Origin: Rossellomorea aquimaris
GTDB taxonomy: Bacteria > Bacillota > Bacilli > Bacillales > Bacillaceae_B
Direction: 5' to 3'
Length of the DNA stretch: 64,000 bases
Assembly: GCF_008180865.1 (NCBI RefSeq)
Contig: NZ_VTEX01000006.1
Location: 248,281 to 312,280, forward strand
In this document: piece by piece, positions 14,455 through 17,579 of the stretch
Position numbering within the stretch: the first letter of the stretch is position 1
How the letters are laid out: each line of letters begins with the position of its first letter
Translations under genes and position numbers: made by a program
Notes under the pieces: model-generated
What the model was told of the DNA's origin: nothing
Seen by the model: only the letters and a program-made list of their open reading frames with translations
The model's database searches: none

Positions 14455-14781
14455 TCAATTACTAATTCTTTCCCGCGTCATGTCATAACCAGAATGAATT
14501 TCTTTCATCCCGATCACTTTCAGAAAGTGGCGGAGCTTGTTCATGCAGGATTCCCCAAGGCCACCTGCGATTTCGAACTGATCAATGACGGCACACTTCT
14601 CAACTTTAGAAGTTGTTACGCTTTGGGTTTTACGATACTCCACATGGTTGTTAATGGCGTACGTGGATACCATGGCTTGCCCGACCTTACAATCACCTTT
14701 GGAAAATTCGAATTGGAACTGGATCGACATATCCAAATCCGAGTATAGAGGATTTACTTTCATGCTTATGCTTTTCATCAT
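14455..14781 (-). CDS. hypothetical protein, 108 aa
   Basis: Not recognised. A soluble protein starting MMKSISMKVNPLYSDLDMS, with an amphipathic mixed alpha/beta pattern. The minus strand is preferred over two overlapping plus-strand frames because AAAGGGGG sits just before its ATG and its codon use looks normal. Two adjacent ATGs (14781 and 14778) are possible starts. It ends near the hairpin shared with the convergent gene at 14075. Nothing else supports a role. Confidence 0.5.
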   Translation of the reverse strand: MMKSISMKVNPLYSDLDMSIQFQFEFSKGDCKVGQAMVSTYAINNHVEYRKTQSVTTSKVEKCAVIDQFEIAGGLGESCMNKLRHFLKVIGMKEIHSGYDMTRERISN

Positions 14782-14838: not shown

Positions 14839-15489
14839 TTGGCACCAGAAAGCAATACAGGTGATATTGGTTTTGAAATCTCCTCCAATGGTCACTTTAT
14901 CTCCATTAATATAACTCCGGGCATATTCTTAGAAGAATATTTTAGGACGTGAATCATCATGTGAAAGGAGGATGGTTCCAAAATCACATTCCTTCTAAAG
15001 TTCTCTTTTAATGAAGGATATCAACACATAAGAATAGAATAATATTCAGTAAGGAAGCGATTTTTAATCAGGAAGATAGAAGATCTGATGTCAGGAATCT
15101 TATTATTAAACTGTATAGTCAGTAGGTAGTATAACATTTATACTAGTAAAGTTGTCCTTTTGATATGCGCTCTATAAAATACTGACTTTAGTAAAGAGAG
15201 GAAATCGTGAGAAGAACTTGAGGTCGCTAATGGTCATGATTGGCTGTGGCATGAATGTATAGACCGGTTACATAGCATCAAAAACACTCATTTTGAAAAT
15301 GGCTAATATGTAAGAGTCATTGAGGTTATATATCGATCGGTTTGTCCTTATCTACAAAACATAGGCTACCCAGTGAAATATTCCTCGTTTTTGTTTTATG
15401 ATAGGGAAAACTTTCTAGACATATGCTTAAAAGAATATAGTGAGAGTGTAAATTCATATTATAATGAAAAAAAAGCCTCCTGCGTTTGA
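14839..15489 (+). pseudogene. remains of a decayed protein-coding gene
   Basis: The gap between two intact minus-strand genes holds protein-like reading frames broken by stops. The first (14839-14952) reads APESNTGDIGFEISSNGHF and on to EEYFRT, then stops. The second, in one frame, runs from about 15170 to 15489 through a TGA near 15205 and a TAA near 15306. It contains EELEVANGHDWLWHECIDRL before the TAA and VIEVIYRSVCPYLQNIGYPV after it. Restoring the TAA as a sense codon joins about 90 residues. The family is not recognised. The last codons overlap the terminator of the peptide gene, so the end is uncertain. Confidence 0.5.
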
Positions 15490-15495
15490 AGGCTT
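15467..15495 (-). terminator. intrinsic terminator of the ELPSVY peptide gene
   Basis: On the minus strand AAGCCT...AGGCTT is followed by a run of eight T, about 20 nt after the stop of the 82-aa gene. Confidence 0.75.
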
Positions 15496-15517: not shown

Positions 15518-15766
15518 TTAGTAAACAGATGGAAGTTCTTTAGAATAAACAGAAGGCAATTCAGCTGCATTCTCAGTAGGGGCTTTGTACACAGATGGAA
15601 GCTCTGCTACAACTTTAGAGTAAACAGAAGGTAATTCTGCCACTACATTTGGAGTCGAGTAAACAGAAGGTAGTTCAGCTACATCATTAGAGGGTGCTTT
15701 AACTGCTGCGAAAGCTCCAAGAAGTAAGACAGAAGCAGTAATAACTGTAAGAAAACGTTTTTTCAT
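15518..15766 (-). CDS. secreted precursor with five ELPSVY repeats, candidate signalling peptide
   Basis: An 82-aa protein: a Sec-type signal peptide (residues 1 to about 24, MKKRF plus a hydrophobic core ending AVKA), then only repeats. ELPSVY occurs five times, at plus-strand positions 15521-15538, 15545-15562, 15587-15604, 15620-15637 and 15659-15676. Four copies are preceded by Ala, and the last is the exact C-terminus. Spacers differ in length (2-7 aa) and sequence, while the hexapeptide is invariant despite differing codons. GGGAGGA lies 7-8 nt before the ATG. It diverges from a PlcR-like HTH-TPR regulator. AELPSVY resembles the PapR heptapeptide ADLPFEF of the B. cereus PlcR system (small-acidic-Leu-Pro-x-x-aromatic). 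I infer a multi-copy pheromone precursor. Confidence 0.8.
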   Translation of the reverse strand: MKKRFLTVITASVLLLGAFAAVKAPSNDVAELPSVYSTPNVVAELPSVYSKVVAELPSVYKAPTENAAELPSVYSKELPSVY

Positions 15767-15838
15767 AGGTATTTCCTCCCTTTTTCAAAGTGAAAGTTTT
15801 TGGGTATGATTGATTAAAAGATTGTTAACTATATTAAA

Positions 15839-15855
15839 GCATATTTAACAAATGC
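15839..15855. promoter_or_regulatory. dyad in the divergent promoter region, candidate operator
   Basis: GCATATTTAACAAATGC is an imperfect inverted repeat (GCATnTnTnAnAnATGC). On the minus strand it lies 5 nt upstream of TATAGT, a likely -10 for the peptide gene that lacks a good -35. The dyad thus takes the -35 position, as at an activator-dependent promoter. Binding by the adjacent regulator is inferred. Confidence 0.45.
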
Positions 15856-15920
15856 ATACATCCCGATTCTAGGGGCTTATTCACCAATTTTAGTGATGAA
15901 AGATAAGCCATACGGCTGAT

Positions 15921-15926
15921 TATAAT
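15921..15926 (+). promoter_or_regulatory. -10 element for the HTH-TPR regulator
   Basis: TATAAT about 45 nt upstream of the regulator start; no convincing -35 at 17 nt. Confidence 0.4.
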
Positions 15927-15971
15927 GAAAAATATAATTATAGGAATATTTTTTTCTTAGGGGAGATTGAC

Positions 15972-16850
15972 ATGGACTTTAGTATCGTAGGTCAAAAAAT
16001 AAAAGAACTACGTAAGAATATAGGTCTTTCACAGGAAGAGCTGGCAGAAGGGATTTGTACCCAGGCTCAGATAAGTAAAATCGAAAAAGGAGATGTCTTT
16101 CCGTACGCATCGACGTTGTTTCTAATATCCAGGAAGCTTGGAGTAGACGTTAACTACTTTTTTGATATAGGAATGACTCCTCGACTTGATTATGTTCTAG
16201 AGGTTGGAAGACAGTTGCAAATTGCGAGAAGAAATATGGATTATAAAGAAATGAAAGAAGTGGTCACAGCTGAAGAAGAAAATCCTTTATTCTTTAATAA
16301 TAACAGAAATTTGCAGCTTCTGAAGTGGCATAAAGGAATTTATCAATTTGAGCTCGATAAGGATCTTGAGAAAGCAGAAAAAACACTCCGTAAATCCATT
16401 ACTCTCACCCACACAACAGATAAAATTTGGACAGAAAGGGAAATTGAAATCCTCCTGACCATTGGGGTTATGTATTTTGAAGAAGGAATTTTCGAAAGAG
16501 CATTGAACATCTATCAAGAAGTGAAGGCGCATATTGAAGCGCTGCCTCACCTGACAGATTATACAATCAAAACGAGACTTTACTATAATATTGCCAGGGT
16601 TTTGACCAGGCTTGAAGAAATAGATCAATCCACAAAGTACTGTAAAGACGCCATTGACTGGTGCATCCTGAAGGACAATATGTATCTTCTTGGAGAACTT
16701 CACTATCACATCGGTTACAACTATGAACTACAAGGGAAAGTGGCAGCAGCCGAGAAATACATGCAAAAAGCACTCATCGTCTTCGAACTTCAAGGAGATG
16801 ACAAATTCATCCAATACATCCGTCGAAAAATAGAAAAATTAACGATATAG
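15972..16850 (+). CDS. HTH-TPR transcriptional regulator, PlcR/RRNPP-like peptide receptor
   Basis: A 292-aa protein with an N-terminal XRE helix-turn-helix (about residues 6-60; QKIKELRKNIGLSQEELAEG, then CTQAQISKIEKGDVFP) followed by helical repeats to the C-terminus. The last ones, such as LGELHYHIGYNYELQGKVAA and AEKYMQKALIVFE, are clear TPRs. Length and architecture match the PlcR/NprR/Rgg class (RRNPP), in which the TPR domain binds a short re-imported peptide. GGGGAGA sits 5 nt before the ATG. The divergent neighbour encodes the repeated AELPSVY peptide, the natural candidate ligand. The stop overlaps a repeat copy. Phage or plasmid regulators share this layout, but no such genes are near. 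Confidence 0.85.
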   Translation: MDFSIVGQKIKELRKNIGLSQEELAEGICTQAQISKIEKGDVFPYASTLFLISRKLGVDVNYFFDIGMTPRLDYVLEVGRQLQIARRNMDYKEMKEVVTAEEENPLFFNNNRNLQLLKWHKGIYQFELDKDLEKAEKTLRKSITLTHTTDKIWTEREIEILLTIGVMYFEEGIFERALNIYQEVKAHIEALPHLTDYTIKTRLYYNIARVLTRLEEIDQSTKYCKDAIDWCILKDNMYLLGELHYHIGYNYELQGKVAAAEKYMQKALIVFELQGDDKFIQYIRRKIEKLTI

Positions 16851-16892: not shown

Positions 16893-17579
16893 ATGAATAA
16901 AAGACAAAAATTGTGGTTGAAAATAAGTATATCTTTCCTATTATTAGGAACCATCATCATGTCTATCGTAGCTTATTTCCTTATCCAATCCATAAGAGAG
17001 GTCTTTTATCAACGTGCGTTTGAGAAGCAATATGACTATGTGTCATTAGAGGAAGAGGGATCGATTGATGCGGTCCAGGTCTTTCACGGGGTGAAAATAA
17101 ATACCTATGTTGAAAGTGAGAGTAACGCGAGCATCGTTCTAGAAATAAATGACGAAGTGGAAGCGAAGATAAAAGGACTTAAGGTTGACCCTGAGGAAGA
17201 GGGCATGCAGCCTTTTTCGAATGTGATCCAATATAAATCAGTAACAGACATTCAATCAGGCAAAGAGCAGTTCATCGTCAGCCTGCAAACGACTCCCGCT
17301 AACAAAAGGGACGGCAACATTAAATACAGGGCCTACACGATCAATGAAAATGGCATCGTTAAGAAGAGTAATTTCACAGCAAGCACCAAATCAAAGCTTG
17401 AAACCCAATGGATAAGGGGGATCCCGGAGGTAACACAAGGATATTATACCAATGTACCCTATCAGGATGGTTCAGTGGGAGCTATTTTGTTCCTTACTCT
17501 TATCGGGCTGGCAAGTATTGCAGGTGGGGTCCTATTGAGAAGAGCGGTTATTATAAATGAAAGAAGCACAGCTGCTTAG
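16893..17579 (+). CDS. membrane protein of unknown function with extracellular beta domain
   Basis: A 228-aa protein with a transmembrane helix near each end (about 10-32 and 196-218) and about 160 residues between them, predicted outside the cell. No family recognised. It starts 42 nt after the regulator with GGGAGTG before the ATG, and could be cotranscribed with it, so it may be part of or controlled by the same signalling system. The sequence does not decide this. A long hairpin overlaps its stop codon. Confidence 0.6.
   Translation: MNKRQKLWLKISISFLLLGTIIMSIVAYFLIQSIREVFYQRAFEKQYDYVSLEEEGSIDAVQVFHGVKINTYVESESNASIVLEINDEVEAKIKGLKVDPEEEGMQPFSNVIQYKSVTDIQSGKEQFIVSLQTTPANKRDGNIKYRAYTINENGIVKKSNFTASTKSKLETQWIRGIPEVTQGYYTNVPYQDGSVGAILFLTLIGLASIAGGVLLRRAVIINERSTAA

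Follow-up and report, generated by a model that had tools for sequence, protein, structure and literature searches.

What is a small secreted protein that consists of little more than a signal peptide and five identical hexapeptides doing beside a regulator that faces away from it? The pair lies in a 64,000-nucleotide stretch of Rossellomorea aquimaris DNA (the window; C14:248281-312280 of a 4.74-Mb genome) and comprises an 82-residue precursor and a divergently encoded 292-residue regulator with helix-turn-helix (HTH) and tetratricopeptide-repeat (TPR) domains (Table 1). We propose, at a probability of nearly nine in ten, that the two genes encode a peptide signal and its receptor for quorum sensing of the PlcR/PapR type: the precursor would be exported by Sec and cut outside the cell to yield up to five molecules of [A]ELPSVY; an oligopeptide permease would bring these back into the cell, where the TPR groove of the regulator would bind them, and the peptide-bound regulator would change transcription, with its own divergent promoter region as the likeliest first target. 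The match of this peptide to this receptor is drawn from linkage, kinship and selection, all read from sequence.

By eye and by a simple rule, the precursor has the signal-peptide anatomy of a secreted protein; its ATG start follows a GGAGG ribosome-binding site, and its gene lies 205 bp from that of the receptor. The sequence-only reading of the locus had described five invariant ELPSVY units, and all copies are indeed exact, with Ala preceding four of them and Lys the last. Copy five runs right up to the stop codon, the C-terminal placing of the short mature peptide in RRNPP/RNPP propeptides; in some relatives (G111, G291, G134, G184 and the ELPGLYK rows) further residues trail the last copy. 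Over all pairs of the five copies, 32 of 180 nucleotide comparisons differ and none of 60 residue comparisons does, and whole-precursor orthologues with 95-96% identity are found in three further species of the genus; the repeats are therefore not a product of chance.

The regulator matches Pfam in both of its parts (HTH_3, 45.1 bits, 1e-11, cut-off 23; RNPP_C, PF18768, 72.3 bits, 5.2e-20, cut-off 26.5), which gives it the N-terminal HTH and C-terminal TPR peptide-binding domain of the RRNPP/RNPP architecture, as had been read from its sequence. The suggested kinship to PlcR stands as well: among solved structures in the PDB, PlcR alone matches the receptor over its full length by sequence, and the predicted fold agrees, as PlcR comes first in the fold comparison (23.6) before RapI (19.0), Rap (18.5) and NprR (16.6), tied with the unrelated TPR protein 3gw4 (22.7). 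Of the matches listed, those to NprR and to the majority of Rap chains are confined to the TPR portion of the receptor. NprR and Rap receptors are longer, with more TPRs, and Rap has no HTH; at 292 residues and with an HTH, the present receptor belongs to neither group. Its residues N206 and R209 align with N201 and K204 of PlcR, which have peptide-binding roles in TPR3. The alignment also places M89, E242 and F279 at the positions of PlcR K89, Q237 and Y275, which read the Glu of the PapR core LPFEF. For PlcRa, residues N205 and K208 are named in PMC3519770 (cited, like the other papers here, from part of its text). Among the named relatives listed, the nearest receptor is that of R. aquimaris 97B (97% identity).

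If the two genes work together, they should also travel together, and they do. A protein search with the precursor returned eight matches in 36 genomes of the genus, and all eight adjoin a receptor orthologue, so that no homologue was found without an HTH-TPR neighbour. Single-copy precursors escape such a search because they have little beyond the Leu-Pro (LP) core in common. Our larger survey started from receptors and read the DNA upstream; it therefore establishes that receptors are accompanied by precursors, but not that precursors are always accompanied by receptors. A receptor orthologue is present in 35 of the 36 genomes, the remaining one being 84% complete, and the single orthologue per genome (61-100% identity) is separated by a gap from the paralogues (at most 56%). 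All 35 orthologues, and six loci of other genera, have a divergent small signal-peptide gene upstream, as do 16 of 16 named loci; the co-occurrence anticipated for the two genes thus holds at 41 of 41 loci of this first set and at 37 of 38 read later, at a distance of 150-205 bp over all loci. One receptor (L033, G020) carries a frameshift at its gene start, real or an assembly error.

The precursors at these loci carry LP-type peptides, and 28 of those in the first set of 41 have a single copy, at the C terminus (among them ELPNAY, ELPTVY, ELPNEY, DLPGWAY, ELPDNPY, ELPTTVY and ELPT(T)QH). The residue before ELP in other copies and species is K, S, T, Q, V, H, R, N or L; of the AELPSVY originally taken as the signal unit, the LP-type peptide is therefore conserved and the leading Ala is not, leaving a unit of about [ED]LPxxx. 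The arrangement of a secreted peptide in repeated copies with a regulator facing away from it would also suit a multi-core precursor of an unsensed product, whether bacteriocin-like, RiPP-like (ribosomally synthesised and post-translationally modified) or destined for wall or matrix, with the regulator doing no more than control its gene, and 41 of 78 precursors are multi-copy. Such a product is nevertheless very unlikely given the prevalence of the single-copy, PapR-like layout in the first loci and the membership of the receptor in a peptide-sensing family; nor was a modifying enzyme recognised among the neighbours examined, where no systematic search was made.

The multi-copy precursors (from the 41 first and 37 later ones; 115 copies in all) are themselves informative. 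Neighbouring copies within them differ at 277 nucleotides and at no residue (G012 set aside), and about 76% of random nucleotide changes would alter a residue. Eighteen of these 41 multi-copy precursors are ELPGLY rows so nearly identical that they do not count as independent cases. Within the first set, 13 precursors are multi-copy; comparison of their copies gives nucleotide differences of 11-25% and, again, no residue difference. The repeats accordingly match within every multi-copy precursor counted, as had been predicted, and the pattern is that of purifying selection keeping each copy. Tandem duplication is easy, however, and the extra copies could be neutral products of it, the C-terminal copy alone being functional: the spacers of G134 (14 copies) and G184 are repeated almost unchanged, and in the four five-copy orthologues, which are only a short distance apart, the spacers are almost as well preserved as the repeats (2 residue changes and 13 synonymous-only changes in 28 spacer codons, against 0 and 17 in 30 repeat codons; the 24 signal-peptide codons have 4 and 3). 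We find this scarcely credible in view of the 277 silent differences, and because the hexapeptide varies between lineages in all copies together (5x ELPSVY, 4x ELPPVY). Mapping the multi-copy state onto the receptor tree requires four changes, at least three of them forced by well-supported branches.

Beyond the genus, an even sample of 299 genomes across the order gave a receptor match at 1e-60 or better in 69, 12 of them from the genus, and 20 loci were picked from the 57 others. Thirteen of these have a divergent precursor (receptor identity at least 44% in 12 and 42% in one), carrying 14x ELPTMY (G134), 9x (G184) and 6x (G233) ELPPIY, 5x ELPPVH, 5x FPPRML, 2x ELPTLF and, in seven, single copies. 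The longest, L103 of G134, is a 230-residue precursor whose 14 identical copies recur with a 14-residue period. Two distant loci have instead a downstream same-strand gene ending in GLPNQH or GLPSQH, which is the PlcR-PapR order, and at five no precursor was found (receptor identity 45, 43, 42, 40 and 40%). The later set of 38 loci, 33 of them newly read, covers four genus groups, including that of G239, in which the receptor is found at 1e-95 in 32 of 36 genomes and 30 loci were read; its 37 precursors are mostly two-copy (ELPGLY, ELPSVF, ELPTQF, and ELPSVY in G332), and the 38th locus (L143, G328) has a frameshift at the precursor gene start, real or an assembly error. One gene layout thus carries 1, 2, 3, 4, 5, 6, 9 or 14 copies in related species, and ELPSVY itself occurs at four doses among relatives (x1, x2, x3, x5). 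This repeated change in copy number suggests that it acts as a dial on signal yield.

The DNA between the two genes holds conserved elements as well. The dyad noted there is confirmed, its 11-nt arms (15822-15832 and 15841-15851) being 91% complementary. Of the first 41 loci, 39 have element A (TATAANTNTAGGNAT core) ahead of the receptor gene, as do 37 of the 38 later ones, and at the three others it has one base changed. As a regulon marker we rejected it (three genome sites with at most one mismatch, against one in the control). An exact extra copy at G000:C1:1159252 (L080 1501-1518) lies about 94 bp before a 418-residue HTH-TPR gene (1612-2868) that we take to be NprR-like in size; this single case suggests a link between two RRNPP-type regulators. 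Element B, at up to two mismatches, has two sites in its own genome and no control match, one site being in the 205-bp gap and the other ahead of a pair of orphan receptors on contig C11. The PlcR box TATGNANNNNTNCATA was discarded as operator, as it does not occur in 15767-15971 at up to two mismatches; at the same stringency the window holds 54 against 46.5 expected. A sigma-70 promoter scan was uninformative (2 found, 2.1 expected).

The orphan just mentioned is one of several. The genome encodes six paralogous receptors on contigs C14 and C11 (49-51% identity), and no LP-type precursor was found beside them, or at 14 orphan loci of other genomes, in a scan for signal-peptide open reading frames whose simple rule can miss genes. 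Several of those 14 loci hold one to eight receptors in tandem between two genes that look inorganic-pyrophosphatase-like and murB-like (eight in L083 of G012, two of them shortened; five in L084 of G011). Could the orphans, then, read ELPSVY besides or instead of the adjacent receptor? They keep R209 in six of six and N206 in five of six cases, and of 38 element B sites across the genus (five in the control), 17 precede a cognate receptor by 122-129 bp and nine precede an orphan paralogue by 122-132 bp, in the same orientation; the other 12 have no receptor of our compiled list within 200 bp. Cognate and some orphan receptor genes therefore have a common upstream architecture, which would reflect either one regulator acting on both or a relic of duplication. 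The latter weighs against orphan readers, as do the presence of element B at only one of the six orphans of this genome and the persistence of the precursor beside one particular receptor across genera, and we regard such reading as rather unlikely.

Within the proposed PlcR/PapR-type pair, a wider picture can be sketched tentatively, although we would not bet on it: a network of one signal and many receptors, in which the single LP-type pheromone of a genome, its dose tuned by an intragenic copy number (1-14) repeatedly gained and lost, would be read by the adjacent receptor and by orphan arrays of up to eight tandem genes with the same upstream element, while peptide and groove would drift together into species-specific codes with occasional convergence (ELPSVY in a distant genus). 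Why a precursor should hold several identical pheromones is an open question on which the natural 1-14 copy series bears, and the natural alleles make the relation of copy number to response threshold testable. The set also supplies over 20 naturally occurring peptide codes, each matched to a receptor, as material for studying pherotype specificity, and orphan receptors for testing eavesdropping.

Co-variation of the repeated peptide with the TPR pocket, put forward as a check on the pairing, is suggestive but not statistically established. In a mutual-information analysis residue 89 ranked 11 of 170 columns, and this ranking was set aside because phylogeny confounds it. An association of Pro after LP with Ser169 was noticed post hoc; five independent pairs averaged 3.5 the same way, 0.3 opposite and 1.2 without difference (median p 0.25). 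Among held-out loci, one clear new case agrees with the noted Ser169 prediction (G072, LPPLF with S169), as does F169 with LPS/LPT peptides; contrary are S169 with ELPLMH and V169 with ELPGLY and ELPPML.

The flanking genes complete the locus. Downstream of the precursor, in relatives as well as here, stands a gene of the same orientation for a 108-residue protein, which may not be part of the system. The two genes are about 740 bp apart in this genome (14782-15517), but many species of the genus have only about 200 bp between them, and other relatives 300-550 bp. Starting 42 bp past the receptor gene, 16893-17579(+) encodes a 228-residue protein with an N-terminal membrane-like stretch and no Pfam or NCBIfam match; it is kept in close relatives and could be co-transcribed with the receptor.

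Table 1. Features of the pair and its surroundings (window coordinates)
Feature	Position	Strand	Basis
Pheromone precursor gene, 82 aa, signal peptide and five ELPSVY copies	15518..15766	-	Open reading frame, sequence
Sec-type signal peptide, about aa 1-24	15695..15766	-	By eye; putative cleavage after VKA
ELPSVY copy 1, aa 31-36	15659..15676	-	Exact repeat
ELPSVY copy 2, aa 44-49	15620..15637	-	Exact repeat
ELPSVY copy 3, aa 55-60	15587..15604	-	Exact repeat
ELPSVY copy 4, aa 69-74	15545..15562	-	Exact repeat
ELPSVY copy 5, aa 77-82, C-terminal, Lys before, stop codon right after	15521..15538	-	Exact repeat
Intrinsic-terminator-like hairpin 3' of precursor gene	15473..15495	-	1 in the window, 0.4 expected in shuffles
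Divergent intergenic region, 205 bp (183-205 bp in 41 first loci)	15767..15971		Locus comparison
Element B, 20 bp, inside dyad 15822-15851	15824..15843	+	Genome and genus scans
Element A, 18 bp, about 30-40 bp before receptor start, holds -10-like TATAAT	15931..15948	+	Conservation
Receptor gene, 292 aa, PlcR-like HTH-TPR, ATG start	15972..16850	+	Pfam, PDB match, predicted fold
HTH domain, aa 10-63	15999..16160	+	Pfam HTH_3
RNPP_C TPR domain, aa 82-282	16215..16817	+	Pfam RNPP_C (PF18768)
Neighbour gene, 108 aa, 3' of precursor, same strand in relatives	14455..14781	-	Conserved; short GNAT-like fold predicted

How, finally, does the pair compare with known systems? With PlcR-PapR of the Bacillus cereus group it has in common an HTH and TPR receptor of about 290 residues, a precursor with a signal peptide next door and a peptide of the form [A][D/E]LP..aromatic (ADLPFEF in PapR, ELPSVY here). 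It differs in that papR lies immediately downstream of plcR on the same strand, whereas the present precursor is upstream and divergent, and in its five peptide copies, the lack of a PlcR box in the gap and the changed equivalents of K89, Q237 and Y275. Bacillales pheromone genes are described as sitting immediately downstream of their receptors (PMC9765709). An upstream precursor is also described for PlcRa-PapRa of B. cereus (PMC3519770), where a 93-residue PapRa precursor with the PapR-like peptide CSIPYEY lies ahead of the receptor gene and no precursor accompanies the paralogues PlcRb and PlcRc, a parallel to the present orphans; PapRa, however, has one internal peptide copy. The five-copy precursor, which the sequence-only reading held to be unusual for this type, is not new in kind, since identical mature peptides occur in up to six copies in AimR, NprR, PlcR and Rap propeptides (PMC9765709) and propeptides with up to eight copies are mentioned in PMC11343458, where both copies of a two-copy Phr are matured and active; multi-copy RRNPPA propeptides are also treated in PMC5199041. 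Relative to these maxima of six and eight in the text covered, relatives of the present precursor reach nine (G184) and fourteen (G134), and the gene order differs. RRNPP_detector (PMC10075063) reports 34 clusters of high confidence, of which 21 are new, and records their gene orientation; the present pair may already lie, uncharacterised, inside one of them, although Rossellomorea, aquimaris and Cytobacillus are absent from the main text of that paper. Among the papers listed by our literature search, none is on the present pair, judged by title or abstract start, and no paper in the literature searched contains ELPSVY, in keeping with the sequence-only reading, which knew of no described ELPSVY system. 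As far as this search shows, then, what is new is the ELP code, a divergent layout kept from genus to genus, a copy series that runs from 1 to 14, and an element that the cognate receptor has in common with orphan receptors.
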